Source of the DNA: Buddleja alternifolia
Taxonomy: Eukaryota > Streptophyta > Magnoliopsida > Lamiales > Scrophulariaceae
Assembly (NCBI GenBank): GCA_019426215.1
Contig: CM033401.1
Location: forward strand, 6,081,134-6,145,133
Reading direction: 5' to 3'
DNA length: 64,000 bases
The translations under genes were made by a program, and so were the position numbers. Shown here piece by piece: positions 1-62,119 of this stretch (its first letter is position 1; every line of letters begins with the position of its first letter). The notes under the pieces are model-generated. The model ran no database searches and had not been told where the DNA came from. It was given only the letters and a program-made list of their open reading frames with translations.

Positions 1-1524
1 AATGTAGTGGCCGATGCACTGAGTAGAAAGACAGAGCGTGCGGCGATCTCCTTAGCCAAAGGGAATGTCCACGAGAAGATCAAGGAAGACCTGGAGCACG
101 ACCCAACGGCCAAGGAGTTGATGAGGCTTGCCAAGGAGGGCAAGACTCGACAATTTTGGGTAGAGGACGACTTACTCTACAGCAAGGGACGACGGTTATA
201 CGTTCCAAAGTGGGGCAACCTACGGAGGGACCTTATTAGAGAGTGTCAGGACACCAAATGGGCGGGACACCCCGGCCAAAAGAGAACTATGGTGCTATTG
301 GAGACAGCATACTTTTGGCCTCAAATGAAGGATGGCGTGGAGGTTTATGTGCGAACGTGTCTTGTGTGTCAACAAGACAAGATGGAAAACCGACAACCAG
401 CGGCCCTATTAGAGCCTTTATCCATCCCTAACCAACCTTGGGAGTCCATCTTGATGGACTTCATTAGTGCCTTGCCAAAATCCTAGGGTTCGAGTTTATT
501 ATGGTGGTGATAGACCGGTTCTCCAAGTATGGGAGCTTCATTGCCTGTTCGAGTGATTGCACGGCGGAGGAGGCAGCAAAGGCATTTTTCAAGAATGTTG
601 TGAAGTATTGGGGGCTGCCCAAGAGCATTATATGTGATCGAGACCCTCGCTTCACCGGACGACTATGGATGGAGCTTTTCAAGATTCTGGGTTCGGAGTT
701 ATGCTTCTCCACAAGCTTTCACCCACAAACCGACGGCCAAACTGAGAGGGTGAATGCCTTATTGGAATGTTATCTTCGGCACTTTGTGAGTGCCAATCAA
801 CACGATTGGGCAAAGCTTCTTGATGTGGCCCAATTCTCATACAACTTGCAAAGGAATGAGGCTACAGGGAAGAGCCCTTTTGAGTTAGCGACGGGACAAC
901 AACCACTCACACCTCACACTTTGGCTATATCTTTCGATAGTGCAAAGTGTCCCGAAGCAGCAAAAATGGCAAAGTCGTGGGCAGAGCAATCTGACTTAGC
1001 CAAATCTTTCTTGGAGAAGGCTCGACGAAAGATGAAGAAATGGGCCGACCCCAAGAGACGACACTTGGAGTTCAATGTTGGCGACAAAGTGTTAATCAAG
1101 CTAATCCCGCAACAATTTAAAGCATTTCGGGGCACGCACAAGGGGTTGGTGGGGAAGTACGAGGGTCCTTATCCGGTGGTCGCCAAGGTTGGAAAAGTTT
1201 CATACCGGCTCGACCTTCCAAGCACATTGAAGATTTATCTGGTCTTTCATGTGAGCATGCTATGACCATACCAAGGGATGAGGAAGATCGAAGCCGAGGA
1301 GAATCACATCGAGCACCTCTCGTGGTAACCAAGTCATTTGACAAAGAGATTGAAGAGGTTATAACTCACAAGGTTGTAAGGCGTCGAGGAATCAAGCCCA
1401 CTCATTACTTTATCAAATAGAAGGGGCTACCCGAGTCCGAGGCAACGTGGGAATCACAAGACGACTTGTGGCAGTTCCAAGATCGCCTTCAACAATACGA
1501 GGCGACGAGGGCGTCGCCACATTA
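1..1524 (+). pseudogene. Ty3/gypsy chromovirus pol remnant (RNase H end, integrase, chromodomain)
   Basis: Decayed 3' end of a retrotransposon polyprotein; the 5' part lies outside the window. It opens with the RNase H end motif VADALSR. The integrase zinc finger follows at 250-385 (GHPG, then CLVCQ); its first expected His is Gln (ECQDTKW). The catalytic core shows its Asp in LMDFIS (about 453-470), the second Asp in CDRDPRF (about 634-655) and the Glu in DGQTERVN (about 730-755). A chromodomain-like tail at 1345-1505 (VVRRRGIKPTHYF, then KGLPESEATWE) marks a chromovirus. One missing base creates the stop at 484-486, a TGA lies at 1263-1265 followed by a frame change, and a TAG replaces a conserved Trp near 1420. 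Only genomic integration is inferred for the ancestor; this copy cannot be active. Confidence 0.93.
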
Positions 1525-5792: not shown

Positions 5793-8700
5793 CTAGTGAT
5801 CAATATACAAGGTGGGCACACTCACAATGTTGATCCAATCCTCACCTTGCTCCTTGCATATTCGTTCTTTCAATTTGGGACAATCTTTCACCATGAGACA
5901 TTTGAGAGAAGTTGGTAAACCCTCTTCGGGCAAGCAGCAGAGCTCGGGACAGTCAATTATCTCCAAATGTTGAAGGGAAATCAAGTATGAAAGAGACCGA
6001 AGATCAACAAGTTTTGGACAGTATTTAATTATCAGCTCTTTAAGACACGGGAAATCGCCATCTGCAACACCTGTCCATTTTTCCAAATTAAACATCCCAT
6101 CAAATGATAGTTTTTCCAACTGAGGAAATGCGTGTTTTTCCCCGTTATCTTCCTTTCTACAAAATAATTTGTCGATATCTACCACTCCTTCCATTTTAAC
6201 AATATTCAAAAACTTCAACGATGGCAACTCCCCCAATGATGGCAATTTCTCACAATATCTACACGCATGCAAGGTTATGCTGGATATTTGAGTGAAAGAC
6301 GGATCACTCATCCAAGATGGAAGTAGCCCGCCACAGAAATAAACTATTGTTAACTCACGTATGCCAAAATGGGGCTGAAGAGATTCCAATATTTCCTCTT
6401 CAATGGTAATTTTGGCATCTTGGAGACCACTCCATATGAATTCTAATATTGTAAGGTCCTTTTTATCACATAGAAGTGCTTTTCCAGCTTCCTCCTTATT
6501 CGAGATGTTCTCCAGCTTCGTAATGCAAAGTGATCCTTTCAGTTTATTCATAGTCCTCAGCTCTCCAATGCGGGTTCCATCTTTGGTGCCAACAAGAAAT
6601 GTACCCAGTGTTTGCAAATTTGTCAATTTTCCAATTCCAATTGGCATTGATAGTAATAGAGAGGAAATATCAAGAACCAAATGCTGCATGTTTATCAACT
6701 TGTACATGCACTTGGGTAATCCGCAGAGCCTGAGACATCCAATGAGTATTAGAGTCTCTAAACTGCCCAAGGAATCTACTGATTCGGGCAACCGTCTGAT
6801 GGGCGTTTTGGACATATCAAGATACTGCAATGCCTTAAGATTTTCAATAGAACTCGGTAACTCCACTATATTTGTGCAACTCAAATCTAAAGTTGTTAAG
6901 AACTTTAGCTTCAAGAACAGATCATTCAATAGTTTCTCAAGTTTAGAACTATAACACTGATGTAACAAAAGCGTCTTCAAACGACTGCATTTTGTGAGAA
7001 TCTCAAAGTGAATTTGACCAATCCCCTCAAAAATCAAGGACAAGTGCTCAAGCTCGGCCACATCTGTGTCAATGTCCAAACTTTTTCTATACTGAATGTT
7101 TAAATATTCTTTGTTGAAGAAAACATTTTTCTCATTTCCAACTTTATACCTCATTTGATCAGCTAAGTGATCATATCCAGAGTGAAAAATGTAATTCGAC
7201 CTTACCAAGTTATCAAAGCATCTAATTGCCACTGCCTCCCTTTTGCCATTTTGCTCGGAGTTTATTAAACCTGCCGCAAGCCATGACCAAATCAACGTGT
7301 CCCTAGTAAATACGTAATCAGCAGGAAATATTGAGCAATAAAGTATGCATTCCCTCATATACCCTTCTCTCTCTAGTATCACATCAACCGGCACTTCTAG
7401 GTTAGTAACAACGTCTTCTGCCAAGGTAATATCCTCTGATGTTGCCGTAGGGGCTAATGAGGGAGGAGGACTTAAAGGTGGCATTATCTGGAATTAGGAT
7501 AACTACATTTCATTAAAGGTGAAGTAAAGTATCTATGATGAAAAGAACAAAGATGTAAAGCTTCTTACAGATTTAAGTATTAAGTCAAAGAGCGGGGCGA
7601 AAAACATTATTCTCCTGAACATTCATAATATACTCAAGCAGATGATCATGCTCACTAACTAAAATATGATGAACTGTTGTTTGATTTCATCTGCAATAGA
7701 TCCAAAAAGAATATTGATAATCCTACAACAATGTGTTAATGCTGGAAGACTTAGCTGCTTAAGCTTTTTTGTTGTAGTGTACTCTTTTTTCACCAAAAAA
7801 GAAAAAGTGTAAATGCTACAACAATTTATTGTTTATAAAACAATAACCTCTTCCAACAAATGACTACTCTGATCATGATTTTAATAATCTATCAATCCAG
7901 AAAATCCTTCTCACGAATCTTGAAATAGAAATCCAAAGGTGTGCTGATACAAGACTTAGACATATTAAACAGGGATTAATGTAAGCATAAATCCAACTAG
8001 TAAAACAATGTAATCAGAGCTGATAATTACCACAGTTTGAAAATCCACTTCTAGGTTAGTAACATCGTCTTCTGCCAAGGTAATCTCCTCTGACGTTGCC
8101 GTAGGAAGGGCTAATGAGGAAGGAGGACTTGGAGGTGGCCTTATCTGGAATTAGGATAACTACATTTCATTAAAGGTGACAAGCAAAGTATCTATGATGA
8201 AAAGAACAAAGACGTAAAGCTTCTTACAGATTTAAGTATTAACTCAAACAGTAGGGCTTAAAAAATTATTCTCTTTAACATTCATATTATACACAAGCAG
8301 GTGATTATGCTTACTAACTAAAATAATGATGAAGTGTTGTTTGATTTCACCTGCAATAGATCCAAAAAGAATATTGATAATGCTACAACAATGTGTTAAT
8401 GCTGGAAGACTTAGCTGCTTAAGCTTTTTTGTTGTAGTGTACTCTTTTTTTCACCAAAAAAGAAAAAGTGCAAATGCTACAACAATTTTATTGTTTATAA
8501 AACAATAACCTCTTCCAACGAATGACTACTCTGATCATGATTTTAATAATCTATCAATCCAGAAAATCCTTCTCATGAATCTTGAAATAGAAATCCAAAT
8601 GTGTACTGATACAAGACTTAGACATATTAAACAAGGATTAATGTAAGCATAAATCCAATAGTAAAATAATGTAATCGGAGCTGATAATTACCCTCGTCTG

Positions 8701-10579
8701 ATAATTTTCTATGAACTTTTCAATGCGTTCTTCGAAGGTTGCCACTGACGTTGCCGTAGGAGGGGCCAATGAGGAATGAGGACGTGGAGGTGGCCTTATC
8801 TGGAATTAGGATAACTACATTTCATTAAAGGTGACAAGTAAAGTATCTATGATGAAAAGAACAAAGACATAAAGCTTCATACAGATTTAAGTACTAAGCC
8901 TAAGAGCGGGGCGAAAAAAATTATTCTCCTTAGCATTCATATTATACATAAGCAGGTGATTATGCTTACTAACTAAAATATGATGAAGTGTTGTTTGAAT
9001 TCATCTGCGATAGATCCAAAAAGAATATTGATAATGCTACAACAATGAGTTAATGCTGGAAGACTTAGCTGCTTAAACTTTTTTGTTATAGTGTAATCTT
9101 TTTTCACCAAAAAAAAAAAAAGAAAAAGTGTGAATGCTACAACAATTTTATTGTTTATAAAACAATAACCTTTTTTGACGAATGACTACTCTGATCATGA
9201 TTTTAATAATCTATCAATCTAGAAAATCCTTCTCACGAATCTTGAAATAGAAATCCAAAGGTGTGCTGATACAAGACTTAGACATGTTAAATAAGGATTA
9301 ATGTAAGCATAAATTCAACTAGTAAAATAATGTAATCAGAGATGATAATTACCATATTCTGAAAATCCACTTCTAGGTTAGTAACGTCGTCGTCTGCCAA
9401 GGTGATCTCCTCTGACGTTGCCGTAGGGGCTAATGAGGAAGAAGGACTTGGATGTGGCATTATCTGGAATTAGGATAAATACATTTCATTAATGGTGACA
9501 AGTAAAGTATCTATGATGAAAAGAACAAAGACGTAAAGCTTCTTACAGATTGAATTTAAGTATTAACTCAAAGAGTGGGATTATTCTCCTTAACATTCAT
9601 ATTATACACAAGCAGGTGATTATGCTTACTAACTAAAATATGATGAAGTGTTGTTTGATTTCATCTGCAATAGATCCAAAAAGAATATTGATAATGTATG
9701 CTGATACAAGACTTAGACATATTAAACAAAGATTAATGGAAGCATAAATCCAACTAGCAAAATAATGTAATCGGAGCTGATAGTTACCACCACCTGAAAA
9801 TCCACTTTTCTTTTCGCTATATTAACATTTGGTCGTATAGACTGAAATCGCGCTAATGTGTCCCAAAAGTGAGCTATCAGCGATGTCATTATTCTTATTT
9901 TCACTGCTCCTCTTCTCGGAATAGCTCCACTTGTTCGATTTTCTGTCGACCCAATGTTGACCGCTGCTACGACAATGATCACCAGATTTAACATGAAAAA
10001 CACCTCGAACGGTGAGATTTTTAACACACTCAGTAATGGCAAGATCCAAATACAATAAGCAATTCGAGAAATAACCAGCAACAATGAGTGGTACGCAACA
10101 TCAAGTCCAGGTACTAAATCTCGACTAGTTTCTTGTTTTTCTTCATTTCTTTTCATGAATAATAGCCTTCCGATGCTCGAGAAAACCGCCGAAGCATACA
10201 AGGCTAGGGCACAACTGACTAGACTGAGAAGCATCATTGAACGGAGAGATAATATTTCTACCGCCCGTTTGGTTGCAAACATGTAATGCACAAGAGAGGT
10301 GGTCATTACAGCTGAAAGGAGCACGAATGTAAACTCTCTCACTAGTCCTAGCCAGCCTCCAACATTTACAAACATAATTTCGCGAATCAGAAAACAGATA
10401 GTTGAGGTGAACACAGATGTTTCTATTATCAAATTCGGGGTGATACGTACGAGCATCGCAGCAAACAAATCGATGGCGAGACAGAGACAACAGAACCGCA
10501 GAATATCCCGGTGATTATTTCCAGATGGCACTCCCAAAAATTGACCCATCGATCTCATCCAGGCTTTGATTTGGGCCAT
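5793..10579 (-). CDS. Predicted membrane protein fused to NLR winged-helix and LRR domain (5 exons, no NB-ARC)
   Basis: Exon model on the minus strand: 10579-9788 (264 codons), 9463-9353 (37), 8799-8692 (36), 8144-8031 (38) and 7487-5793 (564 plus stop), about 939 residues. All introns start GTAA and end TTCCAG, and all junctions are phase 0. Exon 1 encodes about six hydrophobic segments (near residues 27-46, 50-70, 76-98, 113-135, 162-185, 190-210). The three middle exons are Pro/Ser/Thr-rich then acidic (PTATSEEITLA). The last exon starts with the same peptide, then has a winged-helix motif (CILYCSIFP, about residue 423) and roughly 400 residues of CNL-type LRRs ending CPKLKERICKEQGEDW. P-loop, kinase-2 and GLPL are all absent, and the MHD position reads YKVGNEKN. 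If translated it would place an LRR domain at a membrane; that is inference. The alternative is a membrane-protein gene beside an LRR pseudogene. Confidence 0.68.
7440..9800 (-). repeat. Four tandem ~655-bp units, each carrying a mini-exon and its intron
   Basis: The mini-exon recurs at 7487 (start of the LRR exon), 8144, 8799 and 9463, spaced 657, 655 and 664 bp apart, with near-identical introns between. A fourth intron (9464-9787) lacks about 220 bp, and exon 1 ends in the same VDFQ peptide as the mini-exons, so it too derives from the unit. Each mini-exon is 108-114 bp with phase 0 at both sides, so copy number can change without shifting the frame. Confidence 0.88.
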
Positions 10580-11832: not shown

Positions 11833-12659
11833 ACCCGCGCTGTTCTCTACGATGTTCAAGTGGAGATCAAAGATTCTGTGTATCAAGTGGTACTTCAAAG
11901 TCTAAACGTTGTTGATGGTGTGAAATTGTTTGTCGTATGCGACTCCGACAACGAATCAAAGATATACGAGGTATCTCCTTCTTTTCATACTGTATGACAA
12001 TGTTATACATACTGTATATGCACATTATAGAGTCTGTATGATACAGTTTTGTTTACTGTTTTTTTTATGTTTTGTAGGTGAAACATGTTATATCGAACAA
12101 TCATGTTGATTGTTCTTGCAGATTGTTTTTTAGGAGGGATATTTTGTGTAGACACATTTTCTTTGCATTCAACCATGGCCGAATACACAAACTGCCCGCC
12201 GAGTATGCTCTAAAGAGGTGGAGGAAAAACGCAGAAATTATGGCGTCCGATACAATCAACAACCAGGTCACACAATATCGCTCGATGATTCAGAAGACTA
12301 CAAATGATGAGAGTCAAATTTGGATCGACTTTCAAGCATGTTTAAATATTGCGGGTTTTAACAAAGAAAAACTCGAATACATAAAAAATCAATTGGTGGA
12401 TATAAAGTCTCATTTGAGTGTCGGTGCGGACGACAACAATAAAAACAACAAGAATGTTGTTATCGATACACTAGTGGGACCCCAAATTGAGAACGAGCTA
12501 GGGATCAGAAATTCTCAAATGAACCGAACTAAAGGGTGTGGTAAAAGAATTAAGAATAGTGTAGAGATATCCAAGCATGTTCCTAAGAGGAGAAAATGTG
12601 CTGCATGCAGAAAAGTTGATGGGCATAATGGAAGAACTTGTCCATCAAAGGAAAAATAG
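11833..12659 (+). pseudogene. FAR1/Mutator-type transposase C-terminal part (SWIM zinc finger)
   Basis: Two exons are visible. The first ends at 11970 (KIYEV-type end, donor GAG/GTATCT) and an intron at 11971-12077 ends TTTTGTAG. The second, 12078-12659, gives 193 residues. It contains the SWIM zinc finger CSCRLFFRRDILCRHIFF, then LPAEYALKRW, as in FAR1/FHY3 proteins and Mutator-like transposases, and ends with a zinc-knuckle-like CAACRKVDGHNGRTC. The upstream N-terminal DNA-binding and DDE catalytic regions are not found; a short MAEIDTG start near 11207 may be the relic of the first exon. Probably a deleted transposase. Confidence 0.78.
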
Positions 12660-20182: not shown

Positions 20183-20382
20183 TTTTTTTTTTTTTTAATA
20201 CAAGAGGGAGGGGGATACCCTATATATCTAGTTCGACAAACCCGGGTTGATAGTTTTCAACTGAGCTATAAAGACTTTATCAAACTCCATAAAGGAGGGA
20301 GAGCCACACAACTGTGGCTCCTGGGTTTTGAACCCAGGACCTCCCACTCACAAGTGGGAGGTGGTACCGCTAGACCAAAGCC
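20183..20382 (-). mobile_element. tRNA-derived SINE, copy 1
   Basis: Read on the minus strand, a 200-bp unit begins GGCTTTGGTCTAGCGGTACC and ends in a poly(A) tract (poly(T) at 20183-20196). It has RNA polymerase III box A (TGGTCTAGCGG) and box B (GGTTCAAAACC). A hairpin CCTCCCACTTGTGAGTGGGAGG lies between the boxes. Copies at 22616 and 38426 confirm the family. Confidence 0.88.
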
Positions 20383-20849
20383 TAATTTTCAATTTTTGAA
20401 GTCTAAAGTTGAAAGATCATATTTTATAGACTTTTTTATGTTTGTTTTTTAATTAAAACGATAGGATCACTTTCTAGTTTCTACTTTATTTTAGAACCTA
20501 CATTATATTACATTAATTATGAATTTATGTCCGCTATCATTTATTTAATAAGAAAAGTAACATTAAGCATGATAATTTTATGGCTAGTGATGAGGCTAGG
20601 GGTGACCAACGTAGGCACCCCTAGATGAAGCCATAGCAATGCCAGCGCAAAAGTAATAAGTTGCTGCATATGCCCTTCGATTAATATGAAAAGTAAACGA
20701 TCCCATTACTTTAATTAACTCTCCCTTCCCTTTCCCCACCGCTCCCACGCTCATTCCCACCTGCCTCGCCTAACCACCCTTCCCTTCCCTTTCCAGATCC
20801 ACACCGTCCAACGCCACCACGCCTCCATAAACTCATTTAAGGAAGAAAT
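20383..20849. other. Intergenic, shared with 40550-40740
   Basis: The stretch around 20440-20600 (GTTTCTACTTTATTTTAGAA, then CATTAAGCATGATAATTTTA) matches 40575-40735 imperfectly, so upstream flanks of two CNL loci share ancestry. No gene. Confidence 0.5.
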
Positions 20850-22615: not shown

Positions 22616-22809
22616 TTTTTTTTAATACAAGAGGGAGGGGGATACCCTATATATCTAGCCCGACAAACCCGGGTTGATAGTTTTCAACTGAGTCATAAAG
22701 ACTCTATCAAACTCCATAAAGGAGGGAGAGCCACACAACTGTGACTCCTGGGTTTTGAACCCAGGACCTCCCACTCACAAGTGGGAGGTGGTACCACTAA
22801 ACCAAAGCC
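22616..22809 (-). mobile_element. tRNA-derived SINE, copy 2
   Basis: Same family as the 20183 copy and close to it in sequence. TATATTTAAATT occurs directly at the poly(T) side (about 22606) and again about 15 bp beyond the head (about 22822), consistent with a 12-bp target duplication if the head is slightly longer than drawn. Confidence 0.88.
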
Positions 22810-23250
22810 TTAGTGGTAACAATATATTTAAATTGATTGGCTTTTATTGATGGTTGTATATATTTTGAATTTGATTTATCTATTGGTATATATTCTATTT
22901 CTTAACCACCTATCTAAACCTAACTTAATTTAATATTAATGTTTATCAAATAAGGAATTCAAATTATTATTAGCTATTCTCACCAATGTTATTAGCTATT
23001 TCCGCCTCACTTGGTCTTCATCTTGAATCTGCCTTCCAATTTATGTTTATGTTTGCAGAAGAAAAAAAGTTGATGTTAAAGTCTTCAGTTGTATTCTTTT
23101 TTCAAATGTCAATTCCTAGTAAATGTACAAAGCTAGACCCTAGTCCCTAGGTGTATGTGAAATTGTAGCTTTTGACCTTTTTGTCATACTATGGCCGTGT
23201 AGTAGCATGTAGGTAGTGGGTGGCATATTAGTTAGATTTATGATTTCAAA
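22810..23250. other. Intergenic
   Basis: No gene or clear repeat seen. Confidence 0.4.
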
Positions 23251-24476: not shown

Positions 24477-24584
24477 AAAATTCAGAACTATAGAGTACAG
24501 AGATCTGTACCCCCAACTTAGTGAAATTACAAAATTCTGAACTATAGAGTACAGAGATCTGTACTCCCAACTTAGTGAAATTAC
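24477..24584 (+). repeat. 54-bp tandem duplication in the CNL leader
   Basis: 24477-24530 is repeated at 24531-24584 with two changes. Each unit has the hairpin GTACAG-AGAT-CTGTAC and ends CAACTTAGTGAAATTAC. The related locus at 41570 has the CCCAACTTAGTGAAA part once, so the duplication is specific to this copy. Confidence 0.9.
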
Positions 24585-24608
24585 AAATCTCTCATTCTCT
24601 CTTTCAAA

Positions 24609-27329
24609 ATGCCTGATTCTTCATTTATTTCTGGCTTCAGTACAGGCTTTGGATCTGCTTTCCTTCAGTTTGCCTTGGAAAGATTGGCAAATTTCGGATC
24701 TTTTGCCTGGAAAGAGATACGATTGATATTGGGTGTTGAGGAAGAGCTCCGCAAGCTGCATAGGACTTTCCTGAAAATCCAGGACCTAGTAGATTACGTG
24801 GAGAGCAGCCCTTTGAGGTTCTCGAACGGGAGCAAGGCGTGGCAGATATGGTTTGAAGATCTCAGAAGGCTCTCCTATGATGCCGACGCCCTTCTTGATC
24901 ATATATCACTCAGTCTCTCCAAGCCCGACTCTAAAGACTCACTCGATTTGTCTCGAGAAAGTCATAACGTCCAACCGAAGATTCGTTCGGCTCTTGAGCT
25001 TCATCTTCCACATAAGATCAATGAAATGCAGATGAAACTCGAGGATCTTGCTAAAGAAATGAAAAGTCTCCTCAAAATTGAGAAGGTGAAAATGGATATT
25101 ATTCATCATAAGAGAAAAACTAAAACCGGGGAGAGATCTCACTCTACTAGTTTACTAGTTGATGAAGGAGTTATTGTGGGAAGGCAACAGGACAAAGAAA
25201 ATATAATCAAGTTGCTTGGTGAGAAACATGATGATGATGATGTATCTATAATCCCACTTGTGGGAATGGGGGGAATTGGTAAGACAACTCTGGCTCGACT
25301 CATTTTCAATGATGCAGAGGCGTGCAAGGATTTCAAGAAGAAAATTTGGGTTACTGTTTCTGAAGATTTTGACATGGTTATGATTACAAAGTCTATTATC
25401 GAGTGTGCAACGCAGAGGATTTGTGAGATGTCAGACTTGGACTGGCTTCAGCGCGAGCTTCAAAAGATATTGATCTGTAGTGGAAAGTTCTTGTTGGTTC
25501 TGGATGATTATTGGAACGAGAGCCACGATGATTGGGAATTATTGTTTTCACCTGTAAGATCTGCATTCAGAGGAAGCAAAGTTATGGTGACCACTCGGAG
25601 CAGCACGGTCGCAACAGTCGTGGGCTCGACTGGATCGTACCAACTGCAAGGTTTACGTGATGATGATTGTTGGAAGTTAATGAAACATATAGCTTTCTTC
25701 AAAAAGCAGAATAAGAAAAATCTTGAATCATTAGGACAAGAAATAGCAAAGAAGTGCAAAGGTTTGCCTTTGGCAGCCAAGACTCTTGGAAGAGTATTGC
25801 ATTGTAAATCTTCTGAGGATGAGTGGCATTCCATATTGAAAAGTGAGTTGTGGGACTTGCCACAAGATCGAAATAGCGTATACCCCTCGTTAATGCTGAG
25901 TTATCTTCATCTCCCGGCTCATTTGAAAAAATGTTTTGCTTATTGCTCTATTTTCCCTCAAAATCACGAGTTTGAATTGGAGGAACTGGTCCTACTATGG
26001 GTGGCGGAGGGCTTTATTCAACCGGGAGGAGAAAGGAGAATGGAAGACGTCGCGGCCGACTATTTCTATGATCTCCACTCAAGATCTTTCTTCACGCAAG
26101 GTAAAAATTCTTCAAATAAAATAATTTACAAAATGCATGACCTCATTCACGACTTAGCAAGGCTAGTATCTACCGATACGTGCTTCCAAATGAAAACGAA
26201 TCACTACTCGTTATTTGGAAATGCTTGTCATTTGGCTTTACACCACGATAATGTGCAACCTTTACACTTAAAAGCATCCTACAAAAATGAGAGGTTGCGA
26301 ACGTTTTTGGTGATTTGTAAAAATGGCGTTTCTGGAGGACTAATAGACCGGGAACTATTTCTCAACCTAAAATTTGCGAGGGTGCTGGATTTGAGTAATA
26401 TTGGTCTTGGGGAGGTGCCGGATTCAATCTTCCACTTAATATATCTTCGGTACCTCAACGTGTCTGGAAACCGTATTCAAAGTTTACCAACATCAGTGTG
26501 TGAACTTTTAGCATTACAAACTCTCAAGCTCTCCAATTGCCCTAAGCTTATTGATTTGCCAGATGTGAAAAAACTTTCAAACCTAAGGCATCTTGTTTTC
26601 GATATGGGAGCCAAAGTACAATGCATGCCATACGAATTGGGAAATTTGACAAATCTACAAACTTTGACTGCGTTTGTCGTGAGAAACAAAAAAGGCTGTC
26701 GCATTGAGGAACTGAAGGAAATGAACTCCTTAAGGGGATCACTCTCCATCAAGAATGTTGAGAATGTCATTAACGAAAAGGATGCAAGGGACGCAAACCT
26801 AGACAAGAAGCCATACTTGAACAAGCTTAGGTTGTTGTGGGAAGAGCTCAAAGATGAAGATAGTCTCATGGTGAAACAAGCCCAAGTGCTTGAAAACCTT
26901 CGGCCTCATGAAAATTTGAAAGAATTGGAAATAAAGAATTATAGTGGCATGATATGTCCTGGTTGGTTAAGTAATTCGTGTAGCAAATTTACGAGTATCC
27001 ATTTGCAGGGTCTTGGTAACTGCACGGAGCTTCCATCTTTTGGGCTACTCCAACACCTGAAATCTCTCACTATTGGAGAAATGCATGCTTTGAAGTGTGT
27101 TGATGATAAGTTTTATGGAAATGGAAATGGTGAGAAGTTCCCATCACTAGAGTTTCTTGAAGTATATCAGATGGAAAAATTGGTTCAATGGAAGGTGGAC
27201 TCAAACGGTAGCATTTGCATGCGTCGCCTTACTAATTTCAGCATTGATAATTGCCCAGAACTCACCGATTGTCCTTCGTATCTCCGATCTATACGACATT
27301 TGAATATCAGCCGTTGTCCGGGGCTTTAG
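24609..27329 (+). CDS. CNL-type disease resistance protein, intact
   Basis: A single-exon, 906-residue coiled-coil NB-ARC LRR protein, the only complete one in the window. N-terminal Rx-like coiled coil about residues 1-150 (DLRRLSYDADALLD). NB-ARC: P-loop GMGGIGKTT 219-227, kinase-2 LLVLDDYW 295-302, RNBS-B GSKVMVTTRS from 322, GLPL 385-388, winged-helix CFAYCSIFP from 442, MHD in YKMHDL 509-511. LRRs run from about 570 to the end. All ATP-binding motifs are intact, so switch function is plausible. Family knowledge: intracellular receptors that sense pathogen effectors and trigger cell death; the ligand here is unknown. The ATG at 24609 is the first in frame and follows a short leader. Tyr in kinase-2 (DDYW rather than DDVW) is shared with the neighbouring copies. 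Confidence 0.96.
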   Translation: MPDSSFISGFSTGFGSAFLQFALERLANFGSFAWKEIRLILGVEEELRKLHRTFLKIQDLVDYVESSPLRFSNGSKAWQIWFEDLRRLSYDADALLDHISLSLSKPDSKDSLDLSRESHNVQPKIRSALELHLPHKINEMQMKLEDLAKEMKSLLKIEKVKMDIIHHKRKTKTGERSHSTSLLVDEGVIVGRQQDKENIIKLLGEKHDDDDVSIIPLVGMGGIGKTTLARLIFNDAEACKDFKKKIWVTVSEDFDMVMITKSIIECATQRICEMSDLDWLQRELQKILICSGKFLLVLDDYWNESHDDWELLFSPVRSAFRGSKVMVTTRSSTVATVVGSTGSYQLQGLRDDDCWKLMKHIAFFKKQNKKNLESLGQEIAKKCKGLPLAAKTLGRVLHCKSSEDEWHSILKSELWDLPQDRNSVYPSLMLSYLHLPAHLKKCFAYCSIFPQNHEFELEELVLLWVAEGFIQPGGERRMEDVAADYFYDLHSRSFFTQGKNSSNKIIYKMHDLIHDLARLVSTDTCFQMKTNHYSLFGNACHLALHHDNVQPLHLKASYKNERLRTFLVICKNGVSGGLIDRELFLNLKFARVLDLSNIGLGEVPDSIFHLIYLRYLNVSGNRIQSLPTSVCELLALQTLKLSNCPKLIDLPDVKKLSNLRHLVFDMGAKVQCMPYELGNLTNLQTLTAFVVRNKKGCRIEELKEMNSLRGSLSIKNVENVINEKDARDANLDKKPYLNKLRLLWEELKDEDSLMVKQAQVLENLRPHENLKELEIKNYSGMICPGWLSNSCSKFTSIHLQGLGNCTELPSFGLLQHLKSLTIGEMHALKCVDDKFYGNGNGEKFPSLEFLEVYQMEKLVQWKVDSNGSICMRRLTNFSIDNCPELTDCPSYLRSIRHLNISRCPGL

Positions 27330-33853: not shown

Positions 33854-34567
33854 CTGTTTAAATTGTACAAGGGATGCAATGATGGGGATCAAAGTAATTG
33901 TAGATCCGGTGTGTCGTAGATGACTGCTATCTAACGAATTTGGAAGATCTTAATTTGTCGTGATTGATTCATTTCTAAGTTAGGAGATTTCAATTAAGTA
34001 TTTGTTTTATCATGTTTCCTTAGCTTATGTTATTTCCTTTCTTTTCATCTTGGTAAAAGCCTATATAAGGTGCGTATGTTATTTCCTTTCTTGTCTTCTT
34101 GGTAAAAGCCTATTTAAGTTGAGGCTTTGTTATTGTTAAAGACACCTTTGAATTATTGAATAAAACCATATTTAGTTTTCTTACATTATTAGTTTTAGTT
34201 TTAATTTAGATAGCTTGTTCTACATAATGCAACTTCTTATATGCAAATTGCAATCACGAATGTTATGTAACATGTACCTGATTCACTAAAAAAAAAAAAG
34301 TGCGGAAAGTGAAATAAAGTCTGGGGATGGATGTGAAATTTTTTCACAAAAATTTTGCCTCAAAAACATTATTGTTTCAAAAAATACATGTTCTGTAAGA
34401 TATGGAATTTTTCCCTCAAATATTACATTATTTTCTACTCTCAGTTCAGATGAATACCCTTAGTACACCCCAAATATATGTATATGGAAATTAATGAATG
34501 TTATTACTGTTGCTTGGAGAACCAGCAATAAACAATGTCAGGATAACATTTTCACATATAAACAAAA
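33854..34567. other. Intergenic with 49-bp tandem duplication
   Basis: 34026-34074 is repeated at 34075-34123 (TATGTTATTTCCTTTCTT... GGTAAAAGCCTAT). No gene. Confidence 0.6.
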
Positions 34568-36780
34568 GGGGAGAGATCTCACCCTACTAGTTTACTAGTT
34601 GATGAAGGAGTTATTGTGGGTAGGCAGCAGGACAAAGAAAATGTTATCAAGTTGCTTAGTGAGAAACATGATGATGATGTATCTATAATCCCACTTGTGG
34701 GAATGGGGGGAATTGGTAAGACAACTCTGGCTCGACTTGTTTTCAATGGCGCGGAGGCGTGCAAGGATTTCAAGAAGAAAGTTTGGGTTTCTGTTTCCGA
34801 AGATTTTGATGTGGTTATGATTACAAAGTCAATTATCGAGTCTGCAACACAGAGGATTTGTGAGATGTCGGACTTGGACTCACTTCAGCACGAGCTTCAA
34901 AAGATATTGATCTGCAGTGGAAAGTTTTTGTTGGTTCCGGATGATTATTGGAACGAGAGCCACGATGATTGGGACTTACTGTCTTCACCTGTAAGATCTG
35001 CATTTAAAGGAAGCAAAGTTATGGTGACCACTCGGAGCAGCACAGTTGCAACGGTCGTGGGCTCGACTGGACCGTACTATCTCCATGGTCTGATAATGAT
35101 TGTTGGAATTTGATAAAACAAATAGCTTTCTTCAGAAAGGAGAATAAGGAAAATCTTGAATCATTAGGACAAGAAATAGCAAAGAAGTGCAAAAGTTTGC
35201 CTTTGGCAGCCAAGACTCTTGGAAGAGTATTGCATTGTAAATCTTCTGAGGATGAGTGGCATTCCATATTGAAAAGTGAGTTGTGGGACTTGCCACAAGA
35301 TCGAAATAGCGTATACCCTTCGTTAATGCTGAGTTATCTTTATCTCCCGCCTCATTTGAAAAAATGTTTTGCTTATTGCTCTATTTTTCCTCAAAATCAC
35401 GAGTTTGAATTGGAGGAACTGGTCCTGCTATGGATGGAGGAGGGCTTTATTCAACCGGGAGGAGAAAGGAGAATGGAAGACATCGGGGATGACTATTTCA
35501 ATGATCTCCACTCAAGATGTTGCTTCACACAAGGTAAAAATTCTTCAAATAAGATAATTTATAAAATGCATGACCTCATTCACGACTTAGCAAGGCTAGT
35601 ATCTACCGATACATGCTTCCAAATGAAAACGAATCACTACCCCTTATTTGGAAATGCTTGTCATTTGGATTTACCTCACAATAACTTGCAACCTTTAGAG
35701 TTGAAAGCATCCTACAAAAATGAGAGGTTAAGAACATTTTTGGTGATGTGCAAAAATGGCGTTTCCGGAGGACTAATAAATCAGGAACTATTTTTCAACC
35801 TAAAATTTGCGAGGGTGTTGGATTTGAGTAATATTGGTCTTGGGGAGGTGCCGGATTCAATCAACCACTTAATATATCTTCAGTAACACGTCGTGTCTGG
35901 AAACCATATTCAAAGATTACCAAGATCCGTGTGTAAACTTTTAGCATTACAAACACTCAATCTCTCCAATTGCCCTGAGCTTATTGCTTTGCCCGATGAT
36001 ATGAAGAACCTTTCAAACCTAAGGCATCTTATTTTCAATGTGGAAGGCAAACTACGTTTCATGCCATGAGAATCTAGAAAGTTGACCAATCTACAAACTT
36101 TGACCGCGTTTGTCGTAAGAAGACGAAAAGGGCATTGCATCGAGGAATTGAAAAAAATGGATTCCTTAAGAGGATCACTCTCCATCAAGAATATTGAGAA
36201 TGTCACTAACAAAAAAGACACAAAGGAAGCGAAACTAGACACGAAGCCATACTTGAACAAACTTAGGTTGTTGTGGGAAGAGCTGGAAGATGACCTCGAC
36301 CGGGAGGCTCAGGATCGTCTCATGGATAAACAAGCTCAAGTGCTCGTAAACCTCCGGCCCCATCGAAATCTGAAAGAATTGGAGATAAGGAATTATGGTG
36401 GCATGAGATGCCCTGATTGGTTAAGTGATTCGTGTAGCAAATTTACGAGAATCCATTTGCAGGGTCTCGGTTACTGCACGATTCTTCCGTCTTTCGGGCA
36501 ACTTCCACTCCTGAAATCTCTCAATGTTGGAGAAATGCATGCTTTGAAGTGTGTTGATTATGAGTTTTATGGTGATGGAAATGGTGTGAAGTTCCCATCA
36601 CCGGAGTTTCTTAAAGTATATCAGATGGCAGAGTTGGTTCGATGGAAAGGCTCAAATGGCAGCATTTGCATGCCTTGTCTTACTACTTTCAGCATTGATG
36701 ATTGCCCGAAGCTTGTAAGGTTTCCGTCGTATCTTCGATCTCTACCACAGTCGAATATCAACCGTTGTCCGGGGCTTTAA
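34568..36780 (+). pseudogene. CNL pseudogene, coiled coil missing
   Basis: Begins abruptly at GGGGAGAGATCTCACCCTAC, homologous to a point between coiled coil and NB-ARC of the intact gene. The P-loop (GMGGIGKTT) is intact; kinase-2 has Leu to Pro (LVPDDYW). A small deletion near 35090 shifts the frame, TAA interrupts at about 35884 and TGA at about 36067. LRRs continue to CPGL at 36779. Of all the broken copies it has the fewest lesions. Confidence 0.94.
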
Positions 36781-46696: not shown

Positions 46697-47694
46697 CAAC
46701 GATTGTGGGCTCGACTGGACCGTACCATCTGCATGACCTATGTGATAATGATTGTTGGACGTTCATGAAACAAATAGCTTTCTCCAAAATGGAGAATAAG
46801 GAAAATCTTGAATCATTAGGACAAGAAATAGCAACGAAGTGCAAAGGTTTGCCTTTGGCAGCCAAAACTCTTGAAAAAGTATTGCATTGTAAATCTTCTG
46901 AGGATAAGTGGCATTCCATATTGAAATGTGAGTTGTGGAAATTGCCACAAGATCGAAATAGCGTATAACCTTCGTTAATGCTGAGTTATCTTCATCTCCT
47001 GGCTCATTTGAGAAAATGTTTAGCATATTGCTCTATTTTTCCTCAAAATTACGAGTTCGAATTGGAGGAACTGGTCCTGCTATGGATAGCAGAGGGCTTT
47101 ATTAAACCGGAAGGAGAAAAAAGAATGGAAGACATCAGAGCCGACTATTTCTATGATCTCCACTCAAGATCTTTCTTCACATAAGGTAACAGTTCTTCAT
47201 ATATGATCATTTACAAAATGCATGACCTCATTCACGACTTAGCAAAGCTAGTATCTACCGATACCTGCTTCCAAATGAAAATGAGTCACTACCCGTTATT
47301 TGGAAATGCTTGTCATTTGGCTATACATCACGATAACGTGCGACCTTTAGAGTTGAAAGCCACCCACAAAAATGAGAGGTTGCGAAAGTTTATGGTGATG
47401 TGTAGAAACGGCAGTTTTGGAGTACTAATATTAGATAAGAAACTATTTTACAACCTAAAATTTGCGAGGGAGTTGGATTTGAGTAATATTGGTCTCCAGG
47501 AGATGCCAAATTCGGTCGGCTACTTGATGTATCTTTGGTATCTCAACGTGTCTGGAAACCGTATTCAAAGTTTACCAAGATTTGTGTATAAACTTTTAGC
47601 ATTACAAACGCTCAAGCTCTCCAATTGCCCTAAGCTTATTGCTTTGCCCGATGATATGAAGAACCTTTCAAACCTAAGGCATCTTGTTCTTGAA
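46697..47694 (+). pseudogene. CNL fragment: late NB-ARC to first LRRs, between LTR pieces
   Basis: Reads from GSTGPYHLHDLCDNDCW through GLPLAAKTL, the winged helix, MHDLIHDLAKL and the first LRRs to NLSNLRHLV. Stops at 46966-46968 and about 47182. Both ends are joined to LTR sequence. The insert GKKLF-type residues (LDKKLFYN) distinguish this subgroup from the intact gene. Confidence 0.92.
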
Positions 47695-48690
47695 GTTGGT
47701 TTAAAATTGGAATTAATGAATCGATATGAACGTACATGATTAAGTGATCAAATTCATATGATTGACGGCCGCGATCGTATGGAAAATGGTTTATTTAGTC
47801 ATGTACGTTCATATCGATTCATTGGTTCCAATTATAAACCAACTTTTAAGTGACATACTTTGTTAATTAATTTTTCATTCCCCCTAAATCGGGATTGAGT
47901 AATTAAATACTCAAAATTTATCTACTCGAAACGTAGATTAATTTGAGCCAAAGATATTCCACTTTTGACAAATGGAACTCATTTAATTTCTTTGTCAAAA
48001 TCATGCTAAATCACAACTCACTCAATCAGGATTTTCCAACAATTAAGTTGTTGGAAAGAATTATCTAGCGCAATAACGGGAGATGTTTATGAAGATGCAA
48101 AATAATATTGTCTTAAGGAGAGCGAGTCTAAACTTCATTCTCTATAAATAGACCCCCATATTTTGAGATTAAACACACGGAAGTATTAACTTCACATTTT
48201 CTATTCTCGCTTCTTCTCTTAAATACTATTTTGAGTATTTTGAGAATTCTTTGTTTTCTTAAATATTAGTTTTCATATTTTAAGTATAGTGTTGAATATT
48301 AATTGCTAATTTGAGCATTTAAAATATTCTCAAAGTTCTTGAATATTATTTTAAGAACTTGTTAGTGCTAATTTGAGTACTTTGAATATTCTTAAGTATT
48401 AATTTAATATTTGGAGAATAGTTTTGCATGTTAAATGTCTAGACATGCATTTAATTCATCATAGTCCATCGAGAGAGTTTGGAACAAAGTTTTGTTCGTA
48501 GAGTATCGAAGTTTGTAGTGCTACTACTTCTTTACTAAGTCGTTGAATCTTGGAAAACGATTGCCAAATCCAGTAAGCACCATGACCGGGGCAATTTCGT
48601 TTGAAAGATAAAATGTAGACCACTTGCCTCGACTTTGAAATCGTTCTTGAAGATACTAAGCCCGAGTAGGCTCACGTATATTTTCTAACA
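47695..48690 (+). mobile_element. LTR derivative with inverted U3 (copy 2)
   Basis: Begins inside U3 (GGTTTAAAATTGGAATTAATG), folds back at about 47800, continues with the LTR second half (TATA near 48145) and ends TTTTCTAACA at 48690. Confidence 0.85.
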
Positions 48691-58049: not shown

Positions 58050-60595
58050 GCTCATTTGAGAAAATGTTGTGCATATTGCTCTATTTTTCCTCAAAAACAT
58101 GAGTTCGAATTGGGGGAACTGGTCCTGCTATGGATAGCGGAGGGCTATATTAAACGGGAAGGAGAAAGGAGAATCAAAGACATCGGGGCCGATTATTTCT
58201 ATGATCTCCACTCAAGATCTTTTTTCACACAATTTAAAAGTTCTTCATATATGATCATTTACAAAATGCAGGGATTATTGCATAATATACCTCTGTAAAA
58301 TACGAAACTTGCACACATCCCCCCTGTGTTAAAAAAAATAGCCTTATATGCCCTTATGTTAATTTTTAGATTGCACACTCTCCCCTTTCCGTTAGTCTTC
58401 ACTAACGCCGTTAGTCTTCCGTTAGTCCCCTTGTGTTAAAAAATTTCTGAAAATCAGGAAAAATAGAAAATAAAACCAAAAAATTAAGAAAAAAATTTAT
58501 AAATCTAATTAAAAATATTTGAAAATTTTTGAAAAAAGTTAAAACCATCACAATAAAAAAAAAACAAATATAAAAAACAAATCAGAACATAACAAATTAT
58601 AACAAAATGAAATTCAAATAATAAAAAAAAATCATTGTTCGTCTTCATTGTGAAGACGATGAACAGTGAACCCAAATTTCCCCCCCAACACACACACATA
58701 ATCACACATACATATATAGACACACACATATACATATATAATATGTATATATATACACACAAAATTATATAATATATTATATATAAAAAAATCATTGTTC
58801 ATCGTCTTCACTGTGAAGACGATAAATAGGGAACCCAAATCCCCCCCCCCCCCCCCCCCCCTCAACACACACACATAATCACACATACACACACATACAT
58901 ATAGACACACACATAGACATATATAATATTTATATATATACACACAAAATTATATAATATATTATATATAAAAATAACCAAATAAAAAATCACTGTTCAT
59001 CGTCTTCACTGTGAAGGCGATGAACAGTGAACCCAAAATATCCCCCCCAACACACACACATAATCACACATACATCATACATATATAGACACACATATAG
59101 ACATATATAATATGTATATATATACACACAAAATTATATAATATATTATATATAAAAATAACAAAAAAAATAAAAAATATATATAACACAAAAGGTAACC
59201 CAGTCTCGATCCCAGCGAGTGCACAACACTCTCCGTTAGAATCGGAGAGGAGTTTTCGCGCAGAGTTTTTAAAATTACAGGGGCATCTAAGGCTATTTTT
59301 TTAACACAAGGGGAATGTGTGCAGGTTTCGTATTTCACAGGGGTATATTATGCAATAATCCCCAAAATGCATGACCTCATTCACGACTTAGCAAGGCTAG
59401 TATCTACCGATACCTGCTTCCAAATGAAAACGAGTCACTACCCGTTATTTGGAAATGCTTGTCTTTTGGCTTTACATCACGATAACGTGCGACCTTTAGA
59501 GTTGAAAGCCACCCACAAAAATGAGAGGTTGCGAACGTTTCTGGTGATGCGTAGAAACGGCAGTTCTGAAGTACTAATATTAGATAAGAAACTATTTTAC
59601 AACCTAAAATTTGCGAGGGTGTTGGATTTGAGTAATATTGGTCTCCTAGAGATGCCAAATTTGGTCAGCTACTTGATGTATATACAATATCTCAACGTGT
59701 CTGGAAATCGTATTCAAAGTTTACCAAGATCCGTGTATAAACTTTTAGCATTACAAATGCTCAAGCTCTCCAATTGCCCTAAGCTTGCTTTGCCCGATGA
59801 TATGAAGAACCTTTCAAACCTAAAGCATCTTGTTTTTTATGTGGAAGGCGAATTACGTTCCATACCACAAGAATTTGGAAAGTTGACCACTCTACAAACT
59901 TTGACCGCGTTTGTAGTGGGAAACAAAAAAGGGCATTGCATCGAGGAATTGAAAAAAATGGATTCTTTAAGGGGATCACTCTTCATGAAGAATATTGAGA
60001 ATGTCATTAACGCAGAGGACGCAAAGGACGCGAAACTAGACACGAAGCCATACTTGAACAAGCTTAGGTTGTTGTGGAAAGAGCTCAAAGATGGCCACGA
60101 CTGGGAGGTTCGGGAAAATATCCTGGAGAAACAAGCTCAAGTGCTTGAAAACCTTCGGCCTCATCGAAATTTGAAAGAAATGGAAATAAAGAACTATAGT
60201 GGCGTGAGATGCCCTAATTGGTTAAGTGATTCGTGTCGCAAATTTACGAGAATCCATTTGCAAGGTCTCAGTTACTGCACGGAGCTTCCATCTTTTGGGC
60301 GAATCCCACATCTGAAATCTCTCATTATTGGAGAAATGCGTGATTTGGAGTGTGTTGATGATAATTTTTATGGTGATGGAAATGGTGAGAAGTTCCCATC
60401 ACTAGAGTTTCTTGAAGTATATCAGATGCCAAAATTGGTTCAATGGAAGGTGGACTCAAACGGAAGCATTTGCATGCGTAGCGTCGTCTTACTACTTTCA
60501 GAATTGATGATTGCCCGAAGCTAGTAAGGTTTCCGTAGTATCTCTGATCTCTACCACATTCGAATATCAGTCGTTGTCTAGGGCTTCAGTTGGGC
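58050..60595 (+). pseudogene. CNL fragment: winged helix to C-terminus, split by a MULE
   Basis: Begins at LRKCCAYCSIFPQKHEFEL and continues to IIYKM. After the 1.1-kb element at 58271-59362 it resumes at HDLIHDLARLVSTD and runs through a nearly full LRR region to 60480. There a small insertion shifts the frame, with a stop soon after (about 60535). N-terminal and NB-ARC parts are missing. Confidence 0.92.
58271..59362. mobile_element. Mutator-type foldback element with three internal hairpin repeats
   Basis: Terminal inverted repeats of about 90 bp, opening GGGATTATTGCATAATATAC. The perfect 9-bp duplication CAAAATGCA lies at 58262-58270 and 59363-59371. The interior has three direct copies of a ~165-200-bp block, each with the hairpin CGTCTTCACTGTGAAGACG (58640, 58803, 59001), a C-run (21 C at 58841-58861) and CA/TA tracts. 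Confidence 0.93.
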
Positions 60596-60606
60596 TTTTT
60601 TTTTTT

Positions 60607-62119
60607 AGGATGAGTGGCATTTCATATTGAAAAGTGAGTTGTGGGACTTGCCACAAGATCGAAATAGCATATACCCCTCGTTAATGCTGAGTTATCTTCA
60701 TCTCTTGGCTCATTTGAAAAAATGTTTTGCTTATTGCTCTATTTTTCCTCAAAATCACGAGTTTGAATTGGAGGAACTGGTCCTGCTATGGATGGCGGAG
60801 GGCTTTATTCAACCGGGAGGAGAAAGGAGAATGGAAGACATCGAGGCCGACTATTTCTATGATCCCTACTTAATATCTTTCTTCACACAAGGTAAAATTT
60901 CTTCAGATAAGATCATTTACAAAATGCATGACCTCATTCACGACTTAGCAAGGCTAGTATCTACTGATACATGCTTCCAAGTGAAAACGAGTCACTACCC
61001 GTTATTTGGAAATGCTTGTCATTTGGCTTTACATTACGATAACGTGCGACCTATAGATTTGAAAGCCACTCACAAAAATGAGAGATTGCGAACGTTTACG
61101 GTGATGTGTAAAAACTGCGGTTCTGGAGTAGTAAAATTAGTTAAGAAACTATTTTACTACCTAAAGTTTGCGAGGGTGTTGGATTTGAGTAATATTGGTC
61201 TTGGGGAGGTGCCAGAACCGATCGACCACTTAATATATCCTCGTTACCTCAACGTATCTGGAAACAGTATTCAAAGATTACCAAGATCCGTGTGTAATCT
61301 TTTAGCATTATAAACTCTCAAGCTCTCCAATTGCCCTAAGCTTATTATTTTGCTCGATAAAATGAAGAACCTTTCAAACCTAAGGCATATTGTTTTCGAT
61401 GTGGGAGGCAAACTTAGTTCCATGCCACAAGAATTTGGAAAGTTGACCAATCTACAAACTTTGACCGCTTTTGTAGTGGAAAACAGAAAAGGGCATCGCA
61501 TCGAGGAATTGAAAAAAATGGATTCCTTAAGGGGATCACTCTCCATCAAGAATATTGACAATGTCACTAATGCAGAGGACGCAAAGGACTCGAAACTAGA
61601 CATGAAGCTATACTAGACATGAAGCTATACTGAAGCTATACTCGAAACTAGACATGAAGCTATACTGACCACCCAACAAGCTCAAGTGCTTGAAAACCTT
61701 CGGCCTCATCAAAAATTGAAAGAATTGGAAATAAAGAATTATAGTGGGGTGAGATGCCCTAATTGGTTAAGTGATTCGTGTTGCAAATTTACGAGAATCC
61801 ATTTGTAAGGTCTCGGTTACTGCACGGAGCTTCCATCTTTTGGGCTACTTCCTCACCTGAAATCTCTCATTATTGGAGAAATGCGTGATTTGGATGTGTT
61901 GATGATAAGTTTTATGGTGATGGAAATGGTGAGAAGTTCCCGTCACTAGAGATTCTTGAAGTATATCAGATGGCAAAATTGGTTCGATGGAAGGTCTCAA
62001 ATGGCAGCCTTTGCATGCGTCGTCTTACTTCTTTCAGAATATATGATTGCCCAATACTCAACGATTTTCCTTCGGATCTCCGATCTAGACCCAATTTGAA
62101 TTTCAGTCCAGGGCTTTAG
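60607..62119 (+). pseudogene. CNL pseudogene, 3' half
   Basis: Begins after a T-run at DEWHFILKSELWDLP (end of NB-ARC), with winged helix, MHDLIHDLARL and LRRs to the TAG at 62117-62119. Stops at 61309-61311, near 61614 and near 61807; a frameshift lies near 61890. A CTAGACATGAAGCTATACT word is repeated at 61605-61670, a local micro-duplication. It is closer to the intact CNL in 3' flank than the LTR-linked copies. Confidence 0.92.

Follow-up and report, generated by a model that had tools for sequence, protein, structure and literature searches.

A predicted multi-helix, winged-helix/LRR gene of Buddleja alternifolia that lacks the nucleotide switch of NLR proteins

Introduction

In the biology of nucleotide-binding leucine-rich repeat receptors (NLRs), the nucleotide switch is treated as central to receptor function. 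The passages of PMC8813719 on which we draw describe the pseudokinase RKS1 as sitting on the leucine-rich repeat (LRR) of the NLR ZAR1 and state that NLRs require the MHD motif for ADP binding. Wheat NLRs with integrated domains (NLR-IDs) include proteins with several predicted membrane segments, seven of them in one named protein (PMC7422411, in the section drawn on here), and the executor resistance (R) protein Xa10 is described as having four potential membrane helices, forming hexamers, residing in the endoplasmic reticulum membrane and mediating Ca2+ depletion (PMC4542534, in the section drawn on here). Here we analyze a minus-strand gene of Buddleja alternifolia, at positions 5793..10579 of a 64,000-nucleotide stretch of contig CM033401.1 (positions 6,081,134 to 6,145,133; hereafter the window), whose predicted product joins a hydrophobic multi-helix head to a winged helix and LRR of the type found in coiled-coil NLRs (CNLs).

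Results

Recomputing the exon boundaries bore out the proposal of the initial annotation that five phase-0 exons form one frame of about 939 residues. The exons, of 792, 111, 108, 114 and 1695 nt, are each divisible by 3, all introns begin with GT and end with TTCCAG, and the joined frame comprises 939 codons with a single stop, at its end. The junctions given earlier (9787/9464, 9352/8800, 8691/8145 and 8030/7488) are correct as intron ends, whereas taken as exon ends they break the frame. Exon 1 (9788..10579), recognized by its open frame and its identity to the database proteins P0001 and P0004, carries the ATG, a short basic N terminus, the multi-helix hydrophobic head and a basic end reading KRKVDFQVV; an open run of its length (264 codons) is expected about 0.0003 times per window from base composition alone. 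It is followed by intron 1 (9464..9787; 324 bp), which is without some 220 bp that introns 2-4 have. Exon 2 (9353..9463; 37 codons) and exon 4 (8031..8144; 38 codons), both assigned from the frame and from repeat comparison, are linker cassettes of phase 0-0, that of exon 2 being Pro-rich and acidic, and between them lies exon 3 (8692..8799; 36 codons), which has a deviating 3' half and is assigned from its 70% identity to exon 4. Exon 5 (5793..7487), assigned from Pfam and a tail 80% identical to P0001, contains the linker start, the winged helix, an R13L1-type LRR and the stop. Along the 939 residues, a hydrophobic head of several helices is thus followed by a linker rich in Pro and acidic residues, by the winged helix and by the R13L1-type LRR; the joined frame is read directly from the DNA, and from it we infer the splicing as drawn.

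When the first 470 residues were used as a query, two proteins were found at E ≤ 1 among 7988 scored full-length candidates. The best match, P0001 of Buddleja alternifolia (BUALT_Bualt12G0041100, a hypothetical protein), covered the whole stretch with E 1.8e-117 and resembles the gene in head, linker, winged helix, LRR and junction; the second, P0002 of Sesamum radiatum, covered 14% of the query with E 2e-13. In P0001 the linker cassettes (exons 2-4) are missing, the head region carries one insertion and two deletions, and the C-terminal end is different. At its junction KRKVDFQKV runs directly into IMPPPSP, corresponding to exon 1 joined to exon 5. The two-part architecture thus recurs in P0001 across the same junction with NB-ARC absent, and the exon 1/exon 5 junction is supported by the gene prediction of P0001 rather than by a transcript. 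Between the exon 1+5 form of the gene (828 residues) and P0001 (825 residues), 603 of 797 aligned residues are identical, with identities of 22/24 in the N terminus, 107/167 in the helix region (20 of 187 residues being unaligned), 70/88 in the winged helix and 349/433 in the LRR, and with different last residues. The head is the fastest-changing part in this comparison.

Exon 5 matches the Pfam families WH_DRP (E 9.4e-11), LRR_R13L1-DRL21 (E 1.2e-41) and LRR_14 (E 1.3e-28), in agreement with the earlier assignment of a winged helix and LRRs of CNL type. The winged-helix region (7113..7394) contains an RNBS-D motif (CILYCSIFPADY), and the LRR region of R13L1/DRL21 type occupies 5796..7112. The predicted model of P0001 superposes from residue 306 onto ZAR1 from residue 412 on, in a fold comparison that covered residues 305-825, i.e., the winged-helix/LRR side and not the head. 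The P-loop and the nucleotide switch are absent, as first reported: neither exon 1 nor exon 5 gave a Pfam match to NB-ARC at E ≤ 1, the P-loop pattern G-x4-GK[ST] does not occur in any of the 939 residues, and VGN (7134..7142) stands in the MHD position in an alignment of 117 winged helices. Since the adjoining NB-ARC is gone, an MHD motif would have no work. The gene product contains no kinase domain, and its LRR stands C-terminal to the multi-helix head.

A search with residues 400-939 gave 267 matches at E ≤ 1e-10 among 7991 scored candidates, and the best 120 of the 267 were examined. Heads were labelled for the best 43 of the 267 from precomputed Pfam matches, length and hydropathy, with a Pfam rescan in 17 of the 43. 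Seventeen proteins carry a protein kinase, 11 have no head or a short one, nine have an NB-ARC, four have multiple helices (from Buddleja, Sesamum, Andrographis and Penstemon), one has a TIR-LRR and one is a full CNL. A maximum-likelihood tree was built from 57 winged-helix/LRR parts (the window gene, P0001-P0045, ten further of the 120 listed matches and a CNL located at 24579-27329 of the window; P0092 and the headless Crotalaria protein P0046, both without an NB-ARC label, were left out). In this tree the window gene shares a 100/100 clade with the four multi-helix proteins and with a Sesamum protein that has no head, and the four named multi-helix-headed relatives represent four families of Lamiales. 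Another branch, also 100/100, parts 44 lineage rows from 13 classical CNLs, the neighboring CNL among the 13. Among the matches listed, MHD was found in none of the 43 readable lineage rows (44 rows, one with a gap), whereas the remaining matches listed have MHD in 69 of 72 and MH in all 72; these counts are for matches starting within the first 30 positions, with P0046, P0049, P0057, P0092 and P0109 not counted. Because the lineage rows are related, loss of MHD represents one or a few events, not 43. Judged by sequence, the gene represents one branch within a broader lineage of winged-helix/LRR tails that lack MHD and carry differing heads.

The heads of this lineage changed more than once, since the nine NB-ARC-headed rows do not form one clade (a single clade, for this group named after the tree was seen, is rejected with an approximately unbiased test p-value (p-AU) of 4e-29) and two rows with kinases of receptor-like kinase (RLK) type are placed apart from the remaining kinase rows. 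The tree needs 15 head changes over six labels, mainly towards 'none or short', which alone takes 11; changes to 'none or short' may be losses or faulty gene models. The simple truncation of the neighboring CNL was also considered as an origin of the gene and is ruled out, its tail lying across the 100/100 split from that CNL.

Several features of the related proteins were recorded alongside. Kinase-headed proteins with a named source come from Sesamum, Paulownia, Perilla, Salvia, Striga, Cuscuta, Coffea, Handroanthus and Erythranthe. The HRD-like motif is HGD or HND in 14 of 15 kinase-headed winged-helix/LRR proteins (P0020, P0023, P0024, P0028, P0030-P0032, P0035-P0040, P0042 and P0043), and the DFG place reads LYxG or similar by eye, two scripted DFG flags (Striga) preceding that place. 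From their sequences, these kinase-headed proteins look like pseudokinases. An NB-ARC head followed by an MHD-less winged-helix/LRR tail is seen in P0005, P0008, P0009, P0012-P0014, P0016, P0019 and P0041, from Cinchona, Rehmannia, Sesamum, Handroanthus and Perilla. P0005 and P0016 have an RPS2-like LRR between the NB-ARC head and the tail, so that their C-terminal LRR module is the second one.

Conservation was measured as mean pairwise identity per column in sets of our own choosing, comprising six rows of the membrane clade, 10 of 13 rows of the sister clade, 10 rows of the kinase subclade and nine of the 13 CNLs. The values for winged helix, LRR concave face and other LRR, respectively, were 0.60, 0.65 and 0.71 in the membrane clade, 0.64, 0.65 and 0.74 in the NB-ARC-RLK set, and 0.67, 0.70 and 0.73 in the kinase set, as opposed to 0.57, 0.37 and 0.46 in the nine classical CNLs; window, Buddleja and Sesamum alone gave 0.73, 0.70 and 0.77. 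Pair by pair, the LRR was more conserved than the winged helix in six of six lineage pairs and in none of three CNL pairs, one of these comparisons being narrow (87.4 versus 85.8). In the compared lineage sets the LRR is conserved at least as well as the winged helix, the reverse of classical CNLs, and the head is most variable. The concave face was more variable than the other LRR with p-values of 0.05 in the membrane clade, 0.005 in the NB-ARC-RLK set and 0.19 in the kinase set.

Four segments of the head exceed 1.6 in the 19-residue Kyte-Doolittle mean and two further segments reach 1.51-1.57. The same lenient cut also marks two LRR segments (1.53 and 1.59), so the case for helices two and three comes chiefly from predicted models. 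These models contain six long head helices of low to middling confidence, preceded by a short helix at the N terminus and followed by a further helix. The initial annotation counted six hydrophobic segments, of which four pass the strict cut and two only the lenient one, and the models likewise give six predicted membrane helices at about residues 25-46, 50-72, 76-100, 106-135, 161-186 and 190-211 (9947..10507). The head sides that would face the cytosol have an excess of Lys and Arg, a charge distribution that favors, as a prediction, the tail being on the cytosolic side, and we infer six membrane passes with both termini cytosolic. A W/Y-x-x-FP-like motif was noticed by eye in the heads.

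Exon 1 matched no Pfam family at E ≤ 1, indicating that it has no Rx_N, TIR or RPW8 by sequence. In a comparison of six sequences, exon 1 was 57% identical to Buddleja P0001 over 285 alignment columns and 24% identical to Andrographis P0004 over 188 columns (E 4e-10); no local shuffle out of 200 scored as high as the window-Andrographis match, for which the profile probability was 90%. For the heads from Sesamum and Penstemon, no homology to that of the window gene was detected in the same comparison set, so that three of the five multi-helix heads (window, Buddleja and Andrographis) are demonstrably homologous. A search for stand-alone relatives, which finds only those sharing 5-residue words, gave none at E ≤ 1 among 1319 candidates of stand-alone size. 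Only two solved structures were matched by the head, both at E > 1 and taken as chance, and the structure predicted for exon 1 from three rows had a predicted local distance difference test (pLDDT) score of 43, too weak for a fold search.

The linker lies in a tandem array (7392..9807, minus strand) of units made up of exon edges and an intron, each about 654-664 bp long except for the shorter first one (with intron 1), with joins at AAGTG. One such unit is repeated in exons 2-4, at the beginning of exon 5 and in the final 20 bases of exon 1. Exons 2 and 4 start like exon 5 (ATAATGCC or ATAAGGCC ... CTAGAAGTG) and end like exon 1 (AAGTGGATTTTCA.. before the GT). The presence of AAGTG at both join places (9807-9803 in exon 1 and 7396-7392 in exon 5, as read from the sequence), together with the shared exon edges, indicates that the intron was copied with both exon edges and that these edges were fused into a new phase-0 exon. 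The cassettes thereby illustrate how new in-frame exons may be born, an intron and its exon edges being copied through a 5-base match. The intron copies are 92.5-95.9% identical and exons 2 and 4 are 92% identical, versus only 70% for exons 3 and 4, and all three cassettes retain the frame and splice sites. The roughly 220 bp missing from intron 1 were likely removed by a later deletion. The 3' half of exon 3 (8750-8692; VATFEERIEKFIENYQTR) is unlike the other cassettes, although its flanking introns are 92-96% identical to the other copies, and no second copy of this half was found within the window.

Elsewhere in the window, the plus strand at 24579-27329 encodes an open classical CNL of 916 residues with Rx_N, NB-ARC, winged helix and R13L1 LRR, as judged by its open frame and Pfam, and CNL pieces in several frames lie around it (e.g., 34562-36780, 47185-47739 and 59199-61313). 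The neighboring CNLs, many of which were described earlier as broken, therefore include such pieces but also at least this one open gene. At 468-1265 (plus strand) a domain scan found a fragment of a retroelement integrase, presumably of Gypsy type, whose SH3 end is Tf2-1-like. In addition, a 193-residue open frame at 12078-12659 (plus strand) has no Pfam match at E ≤ 0.001, but its CxC...CxH pattern is reminiscent of the SWIM finger in FAR1/MuDR proteins. Finally, two tRNA-like calls on the minus strand (20312-20385 and 22739-22812), with an unreadable anticodon and no Rfam match at the gathering score, are likely false.

Discussion

The interpretation that we tentatively favor, and to which we assign a little less than an even chance, is that the gene encodes a membrane-anchored, switch-less relative of NLRs in which a likely six-helix head would keep the winged-helix/LRR tail at the cytosolic side of a membrane and a conserved host protein is the likely docking partner of the tail. 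An adapter whose host partner is fixed would best account for a conserved, switch-less tail behind many heads. The slowly evolving LRR would then form the surface that couples to this common host protein, plausibly an NLR partner or a signaling complex, and the fast-evolving, exchangeable head would set the location of the complex and perhaps what is sensed. A pathogen acting on the head or on the membrane that holds it would displace the tail, with the output arising from an NLR partner with a working nucleotide switch and not from the tail firing alone, and the tandem linker cassettes might lengthen the tether or vary it by skipping of phase-0 exons.

Some of our results weigh against this interpretation. 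The open frame had been taken to argue for selection, and it is indeed open over 939 codons, but exons 2-4 arose by tandem duplication, so that their openness adds little evidence for selection. Since the exon and intron copies are about equally alike, the cassette copies give no sign of selection either. Finally, in the membrane clade and the NB-ARC-RLK set the concave face varies more than the other LRR, which points to a degree of ligand-driven change. This variation, the NLR type of the LRR and the many CNL copies around the gene in the window would also fit a direct receptor or decoy, in which an effector from a pathogen is bound by the LRR at the membrane and the protein either sequesters this effector or reports to a helper. 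We consider this alternative unlikely, because in the lineage sets the whole LRR is more conserved than the winged helix, unlike in classical CNLs, and because the LRR is 81% identical between the window and Buddleja P0001.

A wider proposal, rather unlikely in our view, is that the tail is a portable, NLR-derived winged-helix and LRR adapter of flowering plants, which would have lost the switch and become joined to kinase-like, RLK, NB-ARC-LRR, TIR-LRR, CNL and multi-pass heads; in its Lamiales branch the LRR would gate a channel- or executor-like membrane head without ATP. The killing activity could instead reside in the multi-helix head itself, as for Xa10, with the winged-helix/LRR tail restraining it until a ligand releases or clusters it. 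The occurrence of multi-helix heads in five rows of one clade, the phase-0 introns between head and tail, and the precedent of Xa10 with its four potential membrane helices are consistent with such an executor-type protein; nevertheless, group 2 executors are short proteins according to the part of PMC4542534 that we cite, as is the Xa10 description, and the head is the most variable part of the protein, which is unexpected for a pore, making this mechanism quite improbable.

Truncated NLRs are common, and the window sequence might comprise a membrane-protein gene and a truncated NLR pseudogene in line, without a joint transcript, or a chimeric gene model. The second codon of exon 5 is ATG, and 11 of 43 lineage database proteins (the best 43 of 267) have no head or a short one, as such an arrangement would allow. 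Yet the same junction is present in the P0001 prediction, the introns are clean GT-AG introns of phase 0, no stand-alone head protein was found at E ≤ 1 among the 1319 candidates, and the lineage-wide loss of MHD is not explained by a recent truncation, so that we regard this explanation as very doubtful. Least probable of all is that an old fusion survives here as a functionless young relic, swollen by cassettes and decaying, as the tandem duplication, with introns 92.5-95.9% identical and one cassette with a deviating 3' half, might suggest, since 939 codons contain neither stop nor frame break and all three cassettes have kept frame and splice sites.

A lineage in which winged helix and LRR persist behind varied heads, without the adjoining NB-ARC and MHD, would mean that the LRR half performs a conserved task of its own, the simplest being to bind a shared host partner, and if one partner were to bind membrane-, kinase- and TIR-headed tails, a common hub of plant immunity would be named. 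The tail likely serves plant immunity as a reusable component that bypasses the usual switch.

The initial annotation held that a multi-pass anchor with NLR-type LRRs would be a different architecture, and in the open-access literature (full text, titles and the starts of abstracts) we found no description of an NB-ARC-less winged-helix/LRR lineage or of its membrane branch. The tail of the gene falls both in the 44-row MHD-less lineage, with VGN, and in the 6-row Lamiales clade with a multi-helix head. With respect to the CNL/NLR class as defined by sequence, the winged helix and LRR are present, and the NB-ARC/P-loop, the MHD and an N-terminal coiled coil, TIR or RPW8 are not. Classical R13L1/RPP13-like-1 CNLs, such as the neighbor at 24579-27329, share the winged helix and R13L1-type LRR; however, this neighbor has Rx_N, NB-ARC and MHD, none of which is present here, and the tails lie on opposite sides of the 100/100 split. 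ZAR1 with the pseudokinase RKS1 is an NLR with a separate adapter and has a coiled coil and a working NB-ARC, whereas the switch is absent here; the kinase-headed relatives would recall ZAR1-RKS1, but in one chain. Executor R proteins (Xa10, Xa23, Xa27 and Bs4C-R) resemble the gene product in having multiple potential membrane helices in a resistance context, and we know of no LRR in them. They are also relatively short (PMC4542534, in the part cited), as compared to 939 residues with an LRR tail. The wheat NLR-ID survey counted genes encoding NB-ARC (PMC7422411, in the part cited), and since NB-ARC is absent here, the gene would not be counted as an NLR-ID. Finally, receptor-like proteins and RLKs have an N-terminal LRR, one membrane pass and a kinase or short tail, whereas here the LRR is C-terminal, the head is multi-helix and there is no kinase.

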